Source: Planctomicrobium piriforme
Lineage (GTDB): Bacteria; Planctomycetota; Planctomycetia; Planctomycetales; Planctomycetaceae
Assembly: GCA_945860955.1 (NCBI GenBank)
Contig: CAMATH010000017.1
Span: 1 to 64,000, forward strand
Length of the DNA stretch: 64,000 nt
Reading direction: 5' to 3'
Shown: positions 1,487 through 43,338 of the stretch, in pieces
Layout: the number at the start of each line of letters is the position of its first letter
Numbering within the stretch: position 1 is the stretch's first letter
The notes under the pieces: generated by a model
The model's input: the letters and a program-made list of their open reading frames with translations, nothing else
The model's database searches: none
What the model was told of the DNA's origin: nothing
Made by a program: the position numbers and the translations under genes

Positions 1487-4400
1487 ATGACGGCGACCAT
1501 TACCTGCATCTGTGACCTGTTGTTCGCTGGGTCACAGCCGAGCCTCGCGATTGATGATTGGCACTGCCCCAGGTGCGGTGAGCCGGTCACAAAACTTTCG
1601 CCTCCCCTCGAGTTTCCGGGCCAGCTCAGTGACTCGGATGGCCTCAAAGAGTACTGGCTGTACCCACAGCGGGATACGGATTCGAGTTCGACCAATAAGA
1701 CATTTCTGTTCGAAGTGAACCTCGACCGACCGCGCGGGCACTTGCGGGAATCGGAGACCGTCGGCCCCACGGTGGAGTTGCACGAAATTCATGCGAATCT
1801 CGGTTGGTCGGCCAAGCCCGATTTCGCGAAGGGGAATCGCCTCACTCGGATTCAGATCGTGTCACCCGTGGCGGTGGCGATCCCGAATGACGGTACCGTT
1901 TTGACCCTGGTTCTCACGGGGAATTTCCCCCTGACCACGTTTCGGTTGCGGGTGTTCCCCACACCTGTTCTGACCTGGAGTGTGGTGAGCGCGACGGGGA
2001 TCGAGCGTTCGTCAAATCCCGAATCCGGCGCATGGCGTGTGTTGCGAAACGACTTTCGCCGGCTGACGATCGAACTGAAATCCAACGGCGTGTACCTACG
2101 GTTGGCTGAGCCACTGGATCCGGAAAGGATCGAATTCGCATTGGATCAAGCCGATTCGAGTCGCAATGCGACGGTTGGTTTTCGCCTGCTCGACCAGCCC
2201 AAGCCGGGAGATATTGTAACGGATTCGCAGGTGGCGAAGTGGGAATTTGACGTCCCGTTTGAGGATGCCAAATGCCGCACCGGCGACTTGATCGATCTGA
2301 CGTTTTGGCCACGATTCATCGCGCGCGCCAGTGATCTCGCGCGAATCCGGTTTGAGTACGAACCGGAGCCGGTTCAATTTTCTCCCCCCAATGGACTGAC
2401 CGTTGAACTCTTTTGGGGGGAGGCGTGTGACAATTGCGATCCGGGGGAATTTTCACAGCTCTTGTACAGTTCTCCGGTGGGACGACTGGTCCTGATGAAC
2501 TCGGGTGGCACCGTGGTCCACGTGCAACGCCCGGTCGTATCCGCCAACGACAATCCCGAAGTTCCCAATTGGCTGACGGTCGGATGGATGCCGGGACAGG
2601 TCGAGAATAATGGAATTGTCCAACTGAGCGAGAATCAGGAACTGGAAATCTGGGTGCGGCTGGACCTGACCCGGCCACCGAAGAGACTTCCCGAGTTTCT
2701 GTCGGCCGAAATCCGAATCTCCAACCAAACAAATCGAACCGACTGGACGACCCGGATCGAAGTGCGACCCGTACGACAACGGGTCGCGTGCCCCATGCCA
2801 TTGATTGTTGACTTTGGAAATACCGCGTCGTTTGCCGCCGTCGGAAACATTGGAATTGAAGCTCCCGGACTGGCGGACGTCGAGATCCTGCAGATCCATG
2901 GGGGTCGGCCGGAATTGCCAATCCCGACACGCCTGGCGGTGAACGAATTCAACGAAGCGGATCCCTTGCGTTCCGAATTCGTCATCGGCCATGACTGCGA
3001 AGGATTGCGAAAGAAGGGGAGTTTTCGCATTCAATCGGATTTGAAACGCTGGATTTCCATCCCCGGAGGAGATATCGCCCGTCCCGTCGCTGACGATTCC
3101 GGACGCCTGCTGCGGATCAAGCCATCCGTCCTGGTGAAGATGTTTCTGTTTGGCGTGATCCGTCGTGCGGAAGCAATGCTTCGCCGGTATTGGATGCAGC
3201 GAATCGTGGTGACATATCCCTCCAAGTTTCGCCCCGAAACCAGAGATTCGCTTCACAATCTGATTCGTGAATTGTGCGACGAAGTGAACAGAGACCCCAG
3301 GCGTGGATCGTGCCGATTGAAATTGGGGACTTTGGGGGAGGATCACGAGGGAGTTCCGGAGGGCTCCGCGGACTTCGCCGATTCCGTTCGATCCGAGAAA
3401 AAGACAACAACGGGTACGCCCGGAACGACATCTTCCCCGGGGGAACCGTATTCCATCGACGAGGCGAACGCGATTGTGACTGGGCATATGGTCGCGGTGT
3501 CGGAACCGAGTTCGAAAACCGTGGTTGCCTCGTTCGATTTGGGGGGAGGGTCGCTCGACACCGCTTTGGTCTGCTTTGATTGCGACAACCCCTCGGACTT
3601 CACGCCCGAATTTGTCTCGGACTACTGGGGGATTGGTGGTTTTTCGGATTTTGGCGGCGACAATGTGACTGTCGCGGTCATGGAACTCATCAAGTCCAGA
3701 CTGTTATCGCTCGCGCAGTCCGATGCCACCACGATCCGGCAATTGAAGGAAATCCCGGTCCCTTCGGATTACCACAAAGAGGCCGGGGCGCGTGTCGATG
3801 ATTATGAACTCCTGTGGCGGATGTCCGAAGACTATAAGTCATGGGTCTGTAAAGACGAGGATGCCCGATTGGCCGAGGTGTGGTTTGACAAGTGGCGGCA
3901 GTCCGCTCCCGCCGCCCCGCACTGGATTGACACTCTCAAGCGCTGTACCAATTGGCCGACTCTGGTGGACATTTACGACCATAAGATCGAACAAGATCAC
4001 ATGGGGACAAAACAACCCTATTCGGTCTGTGAAAAGATCACCAAGTCGATTGATGAGGTCATCGGATTTCTCAGTGCCCGCGAACGTGATGGAACTCCCG
4101 ACGGGGGGATTGACTACGTGGTGATTGGAGGTCGCGGGAGCCACCTGCCTCTGCTCCGCGAGCTGATCGAGACCAAACTTGTTGACGCGGGGAAGTTGCC
4201 CCGGAATGAACCGAAAGCCCCGCACAGTCGGATCCTGTTTGACCAGAACCGTCTGAAATGGATGGTGGCCGAAGGCTTGACCCGGGCCGTCCATTACTGC
4301 GACTCCGGCCTGACCGGATTGGCACGTTCGGGTCAGTTCACGTCGTCGGCGATTGGTTGCATGCGGACGATGCGCGGGAAAATCGAACCGTGCGTTTTGA

Positions 4401-4705
4401 TTCCTGTTTGCACGCGAATTGATCGAACAGTCAAAATGGATTTCGTTCGACACAAGGTGGATGGCGGACTGCAGCAATGTCACCCCTGGGACTTCGCGCT
4501 GCGCGGAGTTTTGACGCTGTACGGCGATGTGGACCGAAACGATCGCTGGATCATTGGCAGTTGCAGGCTCCCCGATGCCCCCAAGGGAACCCGGAGACCG
4601 AAATGCCAGTTGATTCTGGATGGGGCCGAGAACCGAATTCGGCTAATGATCCACAACGATCCGGATGACGACATTGTGTTGGATTTCACCCCCCTCAAGC
4701 TGTGA
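1487..4705 (+). CDS. Hsp70-family ATPase with N-terminal Zn-knuckle and beta-sandwich extension
   Basis: A 1072-residue protein. Residues 1-35 hold paired cysteines (C7, C9, C27, C30) that look like a zinc ribbon. Residues about 60-430 are beta-rich and resemble stacked Ig-like sandwiches. An actin/Hsp70-fold ATPase starts near 436: phosphate-1 loop IVDFGNTAS with its Asp (about 440), connector VVTYPSKFRP (about 570), phosphate-2 loop ASFDLGGGSLDTA (about 680), adenosine motif VIGGRGSHLPLL (about 878). The C-terminus (about 970-1070) matches an Hsp70 substrate-binding beta domain, with GSCRLPDAPKGTRRP aligning to the usual LG.F.L..IP.APRG region; there is no helical lid and no EEVD tail. All ATPase motifs look intact, so it is probably active. 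A large N-terminal addition is unusual for Hsp70 and may recruit a client or partner. The gene lies 49 bp after the upstream gene and is convergent with a second Hsp70-like gene. The family call is strong; its role is unknown. Confidence 0.88.
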   Translation: MTATITCICDLLFAGSQPSLAIDDWHCPRCGEPVTKLSPPLEFPGQLSDSDGLKEYWLYPQRDTDSSSTNKTFLFEVNLDRPRGHLRESETVGPTVELHEIHANLGWSAKPDFAKGNRLTRIQIVSPVAVAIPNDGTVLTLVLTGNFPLTTFRLRVFPTPVLTWSVVSATGIERSSNPESGAWRVLRNDFRRLTIELKSNGVYLRLAEPLDPERIEFALDQADSSRNATVGFRLLDQPKPGDIVTDSQVAKWEFDVPFEDAKCRTGDLIDLTFWPRFIARASDLARIRFEYEPEPVQFSPPNGLTVELFWGEACDNCDPGEFSQLLYSSPVGRLVLMNSGGTVVHVQRPVVSANDNPEVPNWLTVGWMPGQVENNGIVQLSENQELEIWVRLDLTRPPKRLPEFLSAEIRISNQTNRTDWTTRIEVRPVRQRVACPMPLIVDFGNTASFAAVGNIGIEAPGLADVEILQIHGGRPELPIPTRLAVNEFNEADPLRSEFVIGHDCEGLRKKGSFRIQSDLKRWISIPGGDIARPVADDSGRLLRIKPSVLVKMFLFGVIRRAEAMLRRYWMQRIVVTYPSKFRPETRDSLHNLIRELCDEVNRDPRRGSCRLKLGTLGEDHEGVPEGSADFADSVRSEKKTTTGTPGTTSSPGEPYSIDEANAIVTGHMVAVSEPSSKTVVASFDLGGGSLDTALVCFDCDNPSDFTPEFVSDYWGIGGFSDFGGDNVTVAVMELIKSRLLSLAQSDATTIRQLKEIPVPSDYHKEAGARVDDYELLWRMSEDYKSWVCKDEDARLAEVWFDKWRQSAPAAPHWIDTLKRCTNWPTLVDIYDHKIEQDHMGTKQPYSVCEKITKSIDEVIGFLSARERDGTPDGGIDYVVIGGRGSHLPLLRELIETKLVDAGKLPRNEPKAPHSRILFDQNRLKWMVAEGLTRAVHYCDSGLTGLARSGQFTSSAIGCMRTMRGKIEPCVLIPVCTRIDRTVKMDFVRHKVDGGLQQCHPWDFALRGVLTLYGDVDRNDRWIIGSCRLPDAPKGTRRPKCQLILDGAENRIRLMIHNDPDDDIVLDFTPLKL

Positions 4706-37794: not shown

Positions 37795-39126
37795 TCAGTC
37801 GTTACGCAAACGCAGACCCAAATCGTTCAGCTTGCTGCGGACTTCGTTCAACGACGTCACGCCGAAGTTTTTGCTTTCGAGCAGTTCGTCGGGAGTCCGG
37901 GCGACCAGTTCTCCCAACGATGCGATCTGCAACCGCGTCATACACTTGCGGGCGCGAACCGAGAGATTGAGTTCCGCGACGGGTCGGTTGAGCAGGCTTT
38001 GCTGTTGCGGTGTGAGCGTTTCCTGAATGCCGAAATCGCGCGGCTTGTCTTTGCTGGCCAGCATCCCCAGCTTGAGTCCCTTCGACTCCAGCATTTCCTT
38101 GATTTCGCGCAACGACGTCTCGCCGAAGTTCTTGCCCGCGAGCAAGTCCTGTTCGTTGAGGCGAATCAGGTCTTCCAGCGTGCGAACCCCCATCTTTTGC
38201 AGACAGTTCCGGGCTCGCACCGACATTTCGAAATCGCTGACCGAAATCATCAGCGTTTGCTTTTGCCGCTGCTGCTGCCGGATCGAATCTTCATCGAATG
38301 GGAGGTTCGAAGTCGACTCAATATCCTTTAGATACAACCGAGCCCGGCTATGAGTCGGATCGACTTCCAAAGCCCGCCGGAAGCAGTAGGCTGCCGCCGA
38401 GTAGTTCTCAACATCTTCGTACAACAGCCCCAGATTCAGCAGAGCCGAGAGGTGCAATGGGGGCTTCGCCAACGCCCGTTCGTACATCCGGACCGCGTCG
38501 TCGTCGTTGCCGCGCTGGGCGTTCAGTTGCGCCAGCCAGAACAAAGCCCGCTGATGAGTCGGGTCCATATCGACGGCACGCGAGAAATACTCGACGGCAC
38601 CGTAGGTGTCTCCCTTGTCGGCCAGGACGCAGCCCATCTGGTAGCAGTATTCGGGGCGGGTCGAACCTCCCTGAGACGCGGCGGATTTCAGCAATTCTTC
38701 CGCTTTAGAAAGATCGCCACTGGCTCGAACGGCTCCCGCCTGCAACAGCAGGCAGTGGACTTTGTCGTACCCGTGCTTGCCGGCCTGCTCATAGGCTTCA
38801 GCAGCCTCTGTGTAACGGCCAATTCCCAACAGCGCCTGACCCCGGAAGAAGTCAGCGACACCGTCTCCCGCGACCTTTTCCAGCGCCTCGACCGCGACCC
38901 GCCCCTGTCCGAGCAGGTAGAATGCGATGCCCACACGCAGAATCTTCGTTTTGGATTTGTCCCCCTGCTCGACGTCGTTCGCGAGAGTGTAGGCCTCCTG
39001 ACGCAGTTCTGTCGCCTGACCGCCACTGACCGCTGCCTCCAGCGCGCGCACATCATCCGCCGTCAAGGCACCGCTCCCCTGCATCACTCCGCGGACGTCG
39101 ACTGGCTCTTTCAGCGTGGCAATCAC
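37795..39126 (-). CDS. TPR protein with two RNA polymerase alpha C-terminal domains
   Basis: I prefer the GTG at 39126 (443 residues), since GGGAGGAG ends 8 nt upstream on the coding strand; a TTG at 39150 is also open. Residues about 50-290 are TPR repeats (YEQAGKHGY; AVEYFSRAVDMDPTHQRALF). Two helix-hairpin-helix domains of the alpha-CTD type follow, at about 294-355 (MSVRARNCL; NFGETSLREIK) and 382-443 (LSVRARKCM; NFGVTSLNEVR). The Arg equivalent to E. coli alpha R265, which contacts UP-element DNA, is present in both, and N268 only in the first; K298 is replaced in both. The protein may bind AT-rich promoter DNA or RNA polymerase partners. An IS now separates it from the gene it diverges from. 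Confidence 0.9.
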   Translation of the reverse strand: MIATLKEPVDVRGVMQGSGALTADDVRALEAAVSGGQATELRQEAYTLANDVEQGDKSKTKILRVGIAFYLLGQGRVAVEALEKVAGDGVADFFRGQALLGIGRYTEAAEAYEQAGKHGYDKVHCLLLQAGAVRASGDLSKAEELLKSAASQGGSTRPEYCYQMGCVLADKGDTYGAVEYFSRAVDMDPTHQRALFWLAQLNAQRGNDDDAVRMYERALAKPPLHLSALLNLGLLYEDVENYSAAAYCFRRALEVDPTHSRARLYLKDIESTSNLPFDEDSIRQQQRQKQTLMISVSDFEMSVRARNCLQKMGVRTLEDLIRLNEQDLLAGKNFGETSLREIKEMLESKGLKLGMLASKDKPRDFGIQETLTPQQQSLLNRPVAELNLSVRARKCMTRLQIASLGELVARTPDELLESKNFGVTSLNEVRSKLNDLGLRLRND

Positions 39127-39295
39127 GGCAATCACTCCTCCCAAAGACAACGCCCCGTCTCAGCGGGGCGGAATCGAGGCCGATTCCCGCGCGAATCATT
39201 CCGGCGCGGTGAGACGGCGTCCCAGCGGAATCCCTCCCATGGAATTCCGAAGTGCGTAATCATACAGAACGGTACACGGGTTGCAAGCGACGGGT

Positions 39296-39304
39296 CAGAT
39301 TCGC
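39296..39304. repeat. Target site duplication, left copy
   Basis: CAGATTCGC immediately precedes the left terminal inverted repeat and is identical to the copy at 41233-41241. Confidence 0.93.
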
Positions 39305-39319
39305 GAGCCGATTGCGTTG
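39305..39319 (+). repeat. IS left terminal inverted repeat
   Basis: GAGCCGATTGCGTTG; 14 of 15 bases match the complement of the right end, and similarity continues weakly for a few more bases. Confidence 0.9.
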
Positions 39320-39517
39320 CACCGAAGGTGCGGCAGCACAGTGGGTTAAAGATGGGGCGAAAATGTTCTTCCCCCACAGAACTGGCGAAATCGCCTGTCT
39401 TTTCGTTGATTTTTACAAAATTTCACGATTTTTCGACCACCCCCGGACTGGTGCGGGTAATAGTTGCGATGTATAATCTTGAGCGTGGCTTTTGGCACTT
39501 TCTCAAGGAGGTTTTCA

Positions 39518-41026
39518 ATGCGGATTCACGTCACCAAGCCCCTCTTCCCGTGGGATTGTCTGGAAGACAGCCCCAGTCTCAAGACCCTTCGGGAGTTGTT
39601 GCGGGCGATCCCCGATGGCCGGCTGCTGGATGGCTTGCGGCAGTGGCGCGGCAAGGGGAGAACGGATTACTCGGTCAGTGCGTTGTGGGGCGTGGTGGTA
39701 CTCACCATCGCCCTGCGGCACACCTCGATCGCCAACTGTTTGGCGGAACTCGAGCGGAACGAAGGATTGCGACAGGTGATCGGCATCGAGAGTGAAGCCC
39801 AGGTTCCCAAAGCGTGGAACATGTCGCGGTTTCTGAAGGTGTTGGGGCAGGAACCACATCGCAGCGAGATGTTGCGAGCCTACAACGTGATGGCCCAGCG
39901 CCTGGGGTTGGCCATTGAGGATCTGGGGAAGAATCTCGCGGGTGATTCGACCACGTTAAACGCGCGACGTTCGGAAGCGGTCAAGGCGCAGGTCGAGGCA
40001 GCGAAGGCCGAAGCAGCGAAGACAGAGGCAGCAAAGGCGGAGGCAGCAAAGGCGGAGGCCCAGAAGAAAGAACAGGCGGTCGTCACTGCCGGTACTGAAC
40101 CGACGGAGGGGAAGGCCTCATCGAAGTCGCCCGAGAAGCCGGTCGTGATTCAGGAGGACGGGTTGCCGATCCCGATGGGGGGAAAGAAAGAGTACCGTGA
40201 CGATGCCGGCAAGGTCACCAAAGTGCTGGAGTGGCACGGATACAAGGCTCACCTGTTGGTGGATGTGAAACACGAAGTGGTCCTGGCGTATGAGGTCACC
40301 GCAGCAAATGTCTCGGATAACGAGATGATTGAGCCACTGGTGAAGCAGGCCAAAGCGAACCTTCCCAAGGATCGCATTAAGACGCTCGCGTACGACAAGG
40401 CGGCCGACGATTCGATGGTCCACGAACTGCTGAAGGACGAGGAGATCAAGCCAGTCATTCAGATCCGTTCGCTGTGGAGGAATCAGACGGAGCAGCTTGT
40501 CCCCGGCCAGGAACATCGCGGCAACATTGTGCATGATGAAGCGGGAACGGTGTACTGCGTGAATACCGTGAGTCAGCCGCCGATCAAGCACCAGATGTCG
40601 TACATTGGCAATGAACCGGATCGCGGCACAATCAAGTACCGCTGCCCGGCGATGCACGAGGGATGGACGTGCCCGATGTCCGCGACCTGCAACGCCGGCA
40701 AGTTGTACGGGCTGACGGTGCGAGTGAAACAGGAAACCGATCTGAGGCGATTCCCTCTCATTCCCCGCGCCACGAAAAAATTCGAGACGCTGTACAATGG
40801 GCGGACGGCGGTGGAACGGGTCAATGCTCGGTTGAAGATCTTCTGGGGAGCCGACGACGGCAACATCACTGGCGCGGGAAGGTTCCACGCCTACTTCTCG
40901 GCCGTGATGCTCGTCCATGGTGCCTTCGCCACGGTGCTGGCGAAGGCACCGCGGTTCGGTGGCGTCCTGGGTCAAACTCGAATCTCCACCGTGGCCAAAG
41001 CTCTGGAAGAACAAATCCAGACCTGA
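39518..41026 (+). CDS. IS4-family transposase
   Basis: The ATG at 39518 has AAGGAGG about 6 nt upstream, giving 502 residues. The DDE catalytic residues appear as GDSTTLNARR (first Asp, about 146), LAYDKAADDS (second Asp, about 291) and YNGRTAVERVNARLK (about 428), which fits the IS4 signature Y-x2-R-x3-E-x6-K exactly. Between the first and second Asp is a low-complexity Ala/Lys/Glu helix (AAKAEAAKTEAAKAEAAKAE) coded by a 15-bp tandem repeat, an unusual insertion. CPAMHEGWTCPMSATC (about 388-403) is a Cys-rich segment that may bind metal. The frame is intact and the element has clean ends, so it is probably functional. Confidence 0.95.
   Translation: MRIHVTKPLFPWDCLEDSPSLKTLRELLRAIPDGRLLDGLRQWRGKGRTDYSVSALWGVVVLTIALRHTSIANCLAELERNEGLRQVIGIESEAQVPKAWNMSRFLKVLGQEPHRSEMLRAYNVMAQRLGLAIEDLGKNLAGDSTTLNARRSEAVKAQVEAAKAEAAKTEAAKAEAAKAEAQKKEQAVVTAGTEPTEGKASSKSPEKPVVIQEDGLPIPMGGKKEYRDDAGKVTKVLEWHGYKAHLLVDVKHEVVLAYEVTAANVSDNEMIEPLVKQAKANLPKDRIKTLAYDKAADDSMVHELLKDEEIKPVIQIRSLWRNQTEQLVPGQEHRGNIVHDEAGTVYCVNTVSQPPIKHQMSYIGNEPDRGTIKYRCPAMHEGWTCPMSATCNAGKLYGLTVRVKQETDLRRFPLIPRATKKFETLYNGRTAVERVNARLKIFWGADDGNITGAGRFHAYFSAVMLVHGAFATVLAKAPRFGGVLGQTRISTVAKALEEQIQT
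39995..40069 (+). repeat. 15-bp tandem repeat inside the transposase gene
   Basis: About five copies of a GAGGCAGCAAAGGCG-type unit (two identical at 40025-40054) encode the repeating EAAKA helix. Copy number could vary between IS copies. Confidence 0.9.
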
Positions 41027-41217
41027 CGTCCACCGCGGAAAATTGAGGGGCAATCGGCGGGGCTTGCGCTGAGGGTGCGCGCCGGGCGAGCGCACCAAGG
41101 GGCGTGAAACACGGGCAAGTCACCCCAGCCTACCCAGCTTGCGCACTTGCCAAGCGTCTTGGCTGGAATGGCTCGCCAGTAGAACGCATTTTCACCGGCT
41201 TTGCCGGCTGAGGTTTA

Positions 41218-41232
41218 CAACGCAACCGGCTC
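41218..41232 (-). repeat. IS right terminal inverted repeat
   Basis: CAACGCAACCGGCTC, the complement of the left end with one mismatch; the target duplication follows immediately. Confidence 0.9.
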
Positions 41233-41241
41233 CAGATTCGC
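41233..41241. repeat. Target site duplication, right copy
   Basis: CAGATTCGC directly after the right terminal repeat, identical to 39296-39304. Confidence 0.93.
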
Positions 41242-41418
41242 GATGGAAGTGTAATAATGCTCACATTGCATCACGAATCGAAAACGGCCGTTGACAAGGG
41301 AATGGATGGAGGCTGGAATGATCCTCCCTATTCACCCGATGTCCGTTGGAAACAGTCACAGAATCCCTGCCGGATTGGCATCAGGATTGAAGACTCCAAT
41401 CTCTCAGGATCATTTCCG

Positions 41419-43338
41419 ATGACCAGTCCAGCCGATGTTGGCGATTCCGTTGGCGCCAAATCCCCATCGCAGTCCGCGTTGGCGGCGAGCCGTCCGTTTC
41501 GATTTTGGCCAATTCTCGTCCTTGCGGCGTTAATCTGGGTTTGCCGGCAGGTTCCCTCGATCTTCCCGGATTCGAACTTCGCCGGCTTCATGGTCATGGC
41601 AATCGGGCCATTTTTTTGCGGCTTGTTGATGATCGCATGGTGGCTGTTCTTCAGTCGCGAAACCGGCACCACAAAATGGCTGGGTGTGCTGGCAATCGTC
41701 GGGATCGGAGTCGCGTGCAATTTCCTGGCTGACGAGAGCATGCAGGGATTCGGTTTGTTCATGTTCACGTTTCCCTGGGCATTCACGGCGTTCGGTATGG
41801 CGATGACGTTTTTGTCGCGGGCGCAGCATAAGACCCGAGCCTGGGGCGCGGTACTGGCGACGTCGCTCCCGTTTCTCGCAATGCTCCCCCTGCGGACCGA
41901 TGGCGTTTGGGGGAACATGAAAGCCGACATCAGTTGGCGCTGGGCACCGACTCAATCTCAATGGATTGTCGAACGCTTGAAAAAACTCGGGCCGGCGGCG
42001 GCGACACAGGCTCCGCCGGAATGGAGCCCTGAAGGACCGGTTGTCTGGGGGGAATTCCGCGGGCCCCATCGGGACGGAAAGTCTGTGGGGGTCGCGCTCG
42101 ATCCCGACTGGGAGCGCCATCCGCCCAAGGAGTTATGGCGTCGCCCGATGGGTCCGGGTTGGGGATCGGTGATTGTCGTTGGCGACCGACTGTTCACCCA
42201 GGAACAGCGCGGCGAAGAGGAGATGGTGGTCGCCTACCAGGCCGACACCGGCTCACAAATCTGGGTCCATGCCGACAAGGTCCGCTTTCACGAGAAAATC
42301 AGCGGGTCAGGTCCGCGCGCGACTCCGACGTACCACGATGGAAAGCTCTACACCATGGGGGCGGCAGGGGCGGTCGACTGCCTGAACGCCGCGACGGGGG
42401 AATTGATCTGGACGCGCAATCTTCCGGAAGACTCGGGTGCAAAACCTCCGATGTGGGGCTTCTCCAGTTCTCCGCTCGTCGCGGGAGACGTGGTTTTGGT
42501 GCATGCGGGCGGGATGCAAGCCCCGGGTGTCGATTCCGCCACAAAACAGGCGAAAAAGGGATTGGTCGCGTACGACACAGCCACGGGAGCGGTAAATTGG
42601 ACCGCCCCTGCGGGAGACCATGGCTACAGTTCGCCGCAATTGGTGCCGCCGGAAGTCGACGGGGGCGAGCCGCGCGTTTTGCTGCTGTCGAATTCCGGAC
42701 TGTCGGCCCACGATTTGGTGACCGGAGCGATCCTTTGGTCGAATCCCTGGACGACCCAAATGTACCGCGTGATTCAGCCGGTTTCTTTGGGGGACGGGAG
42801 TTTTCTGATCGGAACGCCGATGGGGGGAGGCACCCGGCGAATTGAAGTGACGGCGGCCGACGGGGGTTACGCTGTCAAGGAACTCTGGACGACCAACGCG
42901 ATGAAGCCGTACTTCAACGACTACGTCGAACACAAAGGATTTCTGTATGGATTTGACGGCGATCTGTTCGCCTGCGTCGACCTCGCGAACGGCAAACGCA
43001 TGTGGAAGAAAGGGCGCTACGGCAATGGACAGGTTGTGCTACTACCCGATGGCGACCAGTTGATCGTTCAGGCGGAAGATGGCGAAGTCGTGCTGCTGGC
43101 GGCCGACCCGAAATCGCACCGCGAATTGGGAAAGCTCAGAGCGCTCGACAAGAAAACCTGGAACCATCCCGTGGTCGTCGGAGACCGGCTGTATGTTCGT
43201 AATGGGGACGAGGGAGCGTGTTACGAACTGGCGTTAGCCGGAGGCAAGCGGGTCACAGAGGCCGCAGTGAAGTCGGATGCCGGGGCGGCCACTAACGAAC
43301 GTAACGAAACTCAATCGTCCCCAACACCGACTGAATGA
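41419..43338 (+). CDS. Membrane-anchored PQQ-type beta-propeller protein
   Basis: I use the ATG at 41419 (639 residues), preceded by AGGAT 8 nt away. Four hydrophobic segments lie within residues 25-165 (FWPILVLAALIWVC; GFMVMAIGPFFCGLLMIAWW; WLGVLAIVGIGVACNF; MFTFPWAFTAFGMAMTF). The rest is an eight-bladed propeller of the PQQ/BamB kind, with repeats such as VAYQADTGSQIWVHADKV, DCLNAATGELIWTRNLP, VAYDTATGAVNWTAPAG and CVDLANGKRMWKKGRYG. Similar proteins in planctomycetes are annotated as PQQ-binding-like; a redox role is not shown and the fold often serves as scaffold. The promoter side was altered by the IS inserted 178 bp upstream. The last 47 bp overlap the end of the convergent gene. Confidence 0.9.
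   Translation: MTSPADVGDSVGAKSPSQSALAASRPFRFWPILVLAALIWVCRQVPSIFPDSNFAGFMVMAIGPFFCGLLMIAWWLFFSRETGTTKWLGVLAIVGIGVACNFLADESMQGFGLFMFTFPWAFTAFGMAMTFLSRAQHKTRAWGAVLATSLPFLAMLPLRTDGVWGNMKADISWRWAPTQSQWIVERLKKLGPAAATQAPPEWSPEGPVVWGEFRGPHRDGKSVGVALDPDWERHPPKELWRRPMGPGWGSVIVVGDRLFTQEQRGEEEMVVAYQADTGSQIWVHADKVRFHEKISGSGPRATPTYHDGKLYTMGAAGAVDCLNAATGELIWTRNLPEDSGAKPPMWGFSSSPLVAGDVVLVHAGGMQAPGVDSATKQAKKGLVAYDTATGAVNWTAPAGDHGYSSPQLVPPEVDGGEPRVLLLSNSGLSAHDLVTGAILWSNPWTTQMYRVIQPVSLGDGSFLIGTPMGGGTRRIEVTAADGGYAVKELWTTNAMKPYFNDYVEHKGFLYGFDGDLFACVDLANGKRMWKKGRYGNGQVVLLPDGDQLIVQAEDGEVVLLAADPKSHRELGKLRALDKKTWNHPVVVGDRLYVRNGDEGACYELALAGGKRVTEAAVKSDAGAATNERNETQSSPTPTE

Follow-up and report, generated by a model that had tools for sequence, protein, structure and literature searches.

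The question raised by this locus is what kind of mobile element occupies it, and to which family of insertion sequences (IS) that element belongs. The initial annotation of the window (the whole 64,000 nt stretch of DNA analysed) had described a complete IS4-family element, ending at 39305 and 41232 and flanked by a perfect 9 bp target duplication, with an uninterrupted transposase carrying a YREK motif. The anatomy was borne out; the family label was not. The parts of the element are:

39296–39304, no strand: left copy of the 9 bp target-site duplication CAGATTCGC (sequence; flank-swap control)
39305–41232, + strand: insertion sequence, 1,928 bp (sequence; ends of relatives; flank-swap control)
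39305–39319, + strand: left terminal inverted repeat GAGCCGATTGCGTTG (sequence; relatives with the same ends)
39505–39511, + strand: AAGGAGG, a putative ribosome-binding site by its likeness to one, 6 bases before the ATG (sequence)
39518–41026, + strand: DDE transposase, 502 aa, from the ATG at 39518 to the end of the stop codon; PF01609 and PF05598 (DUF772) (ORF, Pfam, alignment)
41218–41232, – strand: right terminal inverted repeat, reading GAGCCGGTTGCGTTG as the reverse complement (sequence; a remnant elsewhere stops at the same base)
41233–41241, no strand: right copy of the target-site duplication CAGATTCGC (sequence)

Both ends can be read directly and fall exactly where first proposed. 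The terminal inverted repeats are 15 bp long and agree at 14 of 15 positions, and the 9 bp duplication is perfect on both flanks, so that the inverted repeats, the transposase gene, and the target duplication that define a bacterial DDE insertion sequence are all present at the locus. The reading frame is open throughout its 502 codons. By Pfam it contains DDE_Tnp_1 (57.6 bits, cut-off 23) and, just above threshold, DUF772 (23.9 bits, cut-off 23.1), and alignment identifies the catalytic residues as D143, D293, and E433. The YREK motif is present as Y426-R429-E433-K440, an exact Y(2)R(3)E(6)K. All six of these residues (D143, D293, E433, Y426, R429, and K440) are invariant in 17 of 17 aligned proteins, as are three cysteines (C376, C385, and C391); a zinc site formed by the latter is no more than conjecture.

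Judging from its enzyme family, the transposase would bind the 15 bp inverted ends and excise the element by DDE catalysis. Strand transfer into the target would then proceed through a 9-base staggered cut, with host repair filling the gaps to leave the flanking CAGATTCGC repeats. The mechanism is known here only through its anatomical traces: the ends, the open transposase, the DDE/YREK residues, and the 9 bp duplication.

The host genome is a draft of 8.4 Mb in 282 contigs. DNA and protein searches both recover a single full copy of the element from it, a number that may be an underestimate because repeats break contigs. The initial annotation had proposed a genome-wide search for the shared ends, and had staked its boundaries on other copies ending at the same positions. 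Searched across the 8.4 Mb with up to two mismatches, the end pattern GAGCCGRTTGCGTTG has 83 sites (44 forward, 39 reverse), compared with 47 (18 and 29) for a control pattern; only two of the 83 are exact, and these are the element's own two ends. The DNA search also finds a 66 bp fragment, 79% identical, at G000:C14:11503-11569. It matches query bases 1872–1937, the last of which is position 41232, so that this diverged remnant stops exactly at the right end of the element; with it, and with the relatives described below, the boundaries come through the proposed check. The surrounding stretch (L002 1501–1582; G000:C14, about 11503) begins with GAACCGGTTGCGTTG and may be an 82 bp remnant or miniature element, with one end like the right end of the IS and an inverted GTTGCGTT at the other; no direct repeat was seen around it by eye.

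Further evidence for the ends comes from relatives. Of the loci collected, 29 were selected and examined, and the ends could be settled for 10 distinct elements. L009, identical in ends and flanks to L090, was dropped, and L021 and L042 are the L005 element again; 18 other loci were without an accepted end pair, being truncated, degraded, near contig ends, or unclear in their inverted repeat. All 10 settled elements begin with GAG at the left end, and 9 of 10 have it at the right (L090 has CAG). Direct repeats vary more: four of the 10 (the window element, L006, L091, and L095) have a perfect 9 bp repeat, L098 matches at 8 of 9 positions, and L005 has a perfect 10 bp repeat, with the remaining four (L007, at 6 of 9, L090, L096, and L100) lacking one. 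When flanks were swapped among elements with end positions fixed, none of 90 pairs gave a repeat of t or t–1 matches for t = 7 to 12, a control that leaves uncorrected the partial choice of the L091, L095, and L098 ends by the presence of a repeat. The 10 bp repeat of L005 (element at 2790–4633) is GGCATTCGCG; ATTCGC is common to it and the window element's target. A search of one library of open-access papers found none giving these end sequences.

The transposase has relatives in 17 loci of a species collection (protein search), of which 16 are titled as planctomycete and one as Gemmatimonadetes; the 16 aligned relatives are 53–63% identical to it. Among near genomes, 13 of 149 have a match at E ≤ 0.001, while the three other genomes of the genus have none at this threshold. 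At E ≤ 1e-60 there are matches in 2 of 392 genomes of a phylum sample and 13 of 397 of a class sample; the host genome is counted in both of these and in the 13 of 149. The 12 matches on plasmids are all from Bacillota; one of them carries the label IS1182 family and none the label IS4. Viral contigs yielded one distant relative (30% identity) among 61 pattern matches. The group is mostly planctomycete and has no name. As judged from its sequence, the window element is very probably an ordinary, complete IS, likely autonomous, and a new member of this group in the IS1182/IS5 neighbourhood of DDE transposons.

The IS4 label does have some grounds. In the available part of PMC2266710, the hallmarks of IS4 are a YREK signature and the absence of a frameshift, with subgroup direct repeats of 7–13 bp (about 10 bp). 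The window element resembles IS4 in its signature, its single ORF, and a repeat length inside this range, and the NCBIfam IS4_1 model has a weak match in 4 of 17 aligned members of the group (best E 1.1e-4). The signature and the repeat length are both non-specific, however. Y(2)R(3)E(6)K is also found in the IS1182 reference protein (YKERSSVERVNAYLK), so YREK does not separate IS4 from IS1182, and 9 bp repeats are also given for the IS5/IS903 group (PMC3281130, in part). For the window transposase itself IS4_1 reaches 11.5 bits against a cut-off of 115; IS4 InsG scores –2.4 bits on an HMM built from the group, and its hhalign comparison with the group gives 1.0% over 18 columns, which is similarity at noise level. 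The ends of the element begin with GAG, whereas the subgroup ends tabulated in PMC2266710, so far as that text was accessible, begin with CA, CAT, CT, CW, –AATR, or YT. The IS4 family was ruled out on the profile scores, the end sequence, and hhalign to InsG, and the chance that this is nevertheless a true IS4-family element is very slight. A YREK motif together with a repeat of ~10 bp is insufficient for an IS4 call.

The same scores place the group near IS1182 and IS5, under the cut-offs of both. The best NCBIfam model for the window transposase is IS1182 (NF033551), at 115.9 bits with a cut-off of 270, followed by IS5_4 (60.6 bits) and IS5_2 (54.6 bits), with cut-offs of 140 each; IS1182 and three IS5 models each match 17 of 17 aligned members. 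By hhalign, the group aligns to a Bacillota IS1182 transposase at 98.5% over 363 columns and to IS5 InsH at 72.4% over 166, the similarity to InsH extending across the N-terminus and the first half of the DDE domain. On the group HMM, two Bacillota proteins, one annotated IS1182 and the other its unannotated close relative, score 75.0 and 75.6 bits and InsH 19.6, while L112 and L116, near-genome proteins lying above the IS1182 cut-off, reach no more than 15.1 and 10.3 bits. Bit scores on the IS1182 model have to be read with care: E. coli IS5 InsH itself scores 123.8, so 115.9 is no proof of membership, and L102, an annotated IS1182 protein, is likewise under the cut-off at 249.8. A tree built on three distant references, none of them taken from ISfinder, carries no weight for placement because the branches to the references are very long, at 8–10 changes per column; 12 of its 17 forks are open.

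Within this neighbourhood, IS1182 is the family most resembled. In its Bacillota branch, exemplified by the Sporosarcina psychrophila plasmid element L102, the DDE transposase is alignable over its full length and has Y(2)R(3)E(6)K alike. The ends differ, GAGCCGGTTGCGTTG in the window element and GAATCAATTTCATA in L102, as does the repeat, which in L102 is 4 bp at best. The target range of IS1182 in ISfinder is wide. The element could be a plain IS1182 member by the ISfinder definition, with a 9 bp repeat inside the family range, and this is a real possibility, if one somewhat short of an even chance: IS1182 is the best named model and matches all 17 members, the alignment is full-length, and the family has been called heterogeneous (PMC5678879, in the part available). 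The score under the cut-off speaks against it, as do the targets of printed IS1182 cases, which in the accessible portions of the sources have a 4 bp repeat (ISPse1, PMC3281130; an IS1182-type MITE, PMC11578231) or none, IS1272, placed under IS1182, instead replacing stem-loop (palindrome) targets (PMC5678879). The 9 bp (sometimes 10 bp) repeat seen here has neither of these forms. On the IS5 side, elements of the IS903 group also make 9 bp repeats, but are only about 1,050 bp long (PMC3281130, as partly available), against 1,928 bp and a longer protein for the window element.

A distinct, mostly planctomycete IS family, apart from both IS1182 and IS5 and characterized by GAGCCGGTTGCGTTG ends and a 9 bp (sometimes 10 bp) staggered cut, is tentatively suggested, with odds close to even. 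The gain is mainly one of bookkeeping: the family label is corrected, and a group of mostly planctomycete IS acquires well-defined ends and a known length of target. Should the group turn out to be distinct from IS1182, the limits of that family, the heterogeneity of which is remarked on in the accessible part of PMC5678879, would be easier to draw.

The element sits between two divergent genes, with no gene visibly broken:

37795–39150, – strand: gene for a protein that combines TPR repeats with two stretches of RNA polymerase alpha C-terminal domain (domain search)
from 41419 (probable start), + strand: PQQ beta-propeller gene, the right neighbour (domain search; G002 homology)

The start of the right gene is put at 41419 because homology to G002, a genome of the same genus, begins at 41361. 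The protein of the left gene has counterparts of about 80% identity in two same-genus genomes and of about 50% elsewhere in the family. In G001 and G003 the left gene alone is conserved (72–75% DNA identity), with homology ending short of the insertion. G002 retains the right gene alone (89%), starting at window position 41361, and has other genes upstream. No comparable empty site was found in the three other genomes of the genus. A search with the joined flanks found nothing across the junction, only a match to 26 bases of L051, where the left gene starts, and an insignificant 23-base stretch.

A recent, though undated, insertion is plausible, and the perfect repeat and open frame are compatible with it. 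The element might instead be a dead remnant that looks intact by chance; it is single-copy in its own genome, and no nearly identical copy was found in any other genome searched. This is improbable, however, for an element whose frame is open and whose catalytic residues, two ends, and perfect target repeat have all been preserved. A complete and probably autonomous element is the preferred reading. As to possible signals within it, a promoter scan found three candidates where 0.7 were expected, none at the transposase start. Rfam has no match in the window. As for hairpins at the ends, folding of the right 110 bases is on a par with that of shuffled sequences (z –0.45), and z is –1.83 for the left; no end hairpin is put forward.

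A structure model of the transposase is of medium quality (mean pLDDT 64.3, pTM 0.56). A PDB fold search with it returned no match at E ≤ 0.001. The top entries, at E 0.0085 and above, are retroviral integrase and transposase structures, which fit an RNase H-like core and are uninformative on IS family; a PDB sequence search gave nothing relevant. Following D143 is a run of EAAK-like repeats (window 39980–40075, residues about 155–186), found in none of the 16 aligned relatives and modelled as a single helix over residues 153–184. A similar Ala/Lys/Glu-rich run occupies this position in L013, whose truncation at the 5′ end kept it out of the 17-member alignment.
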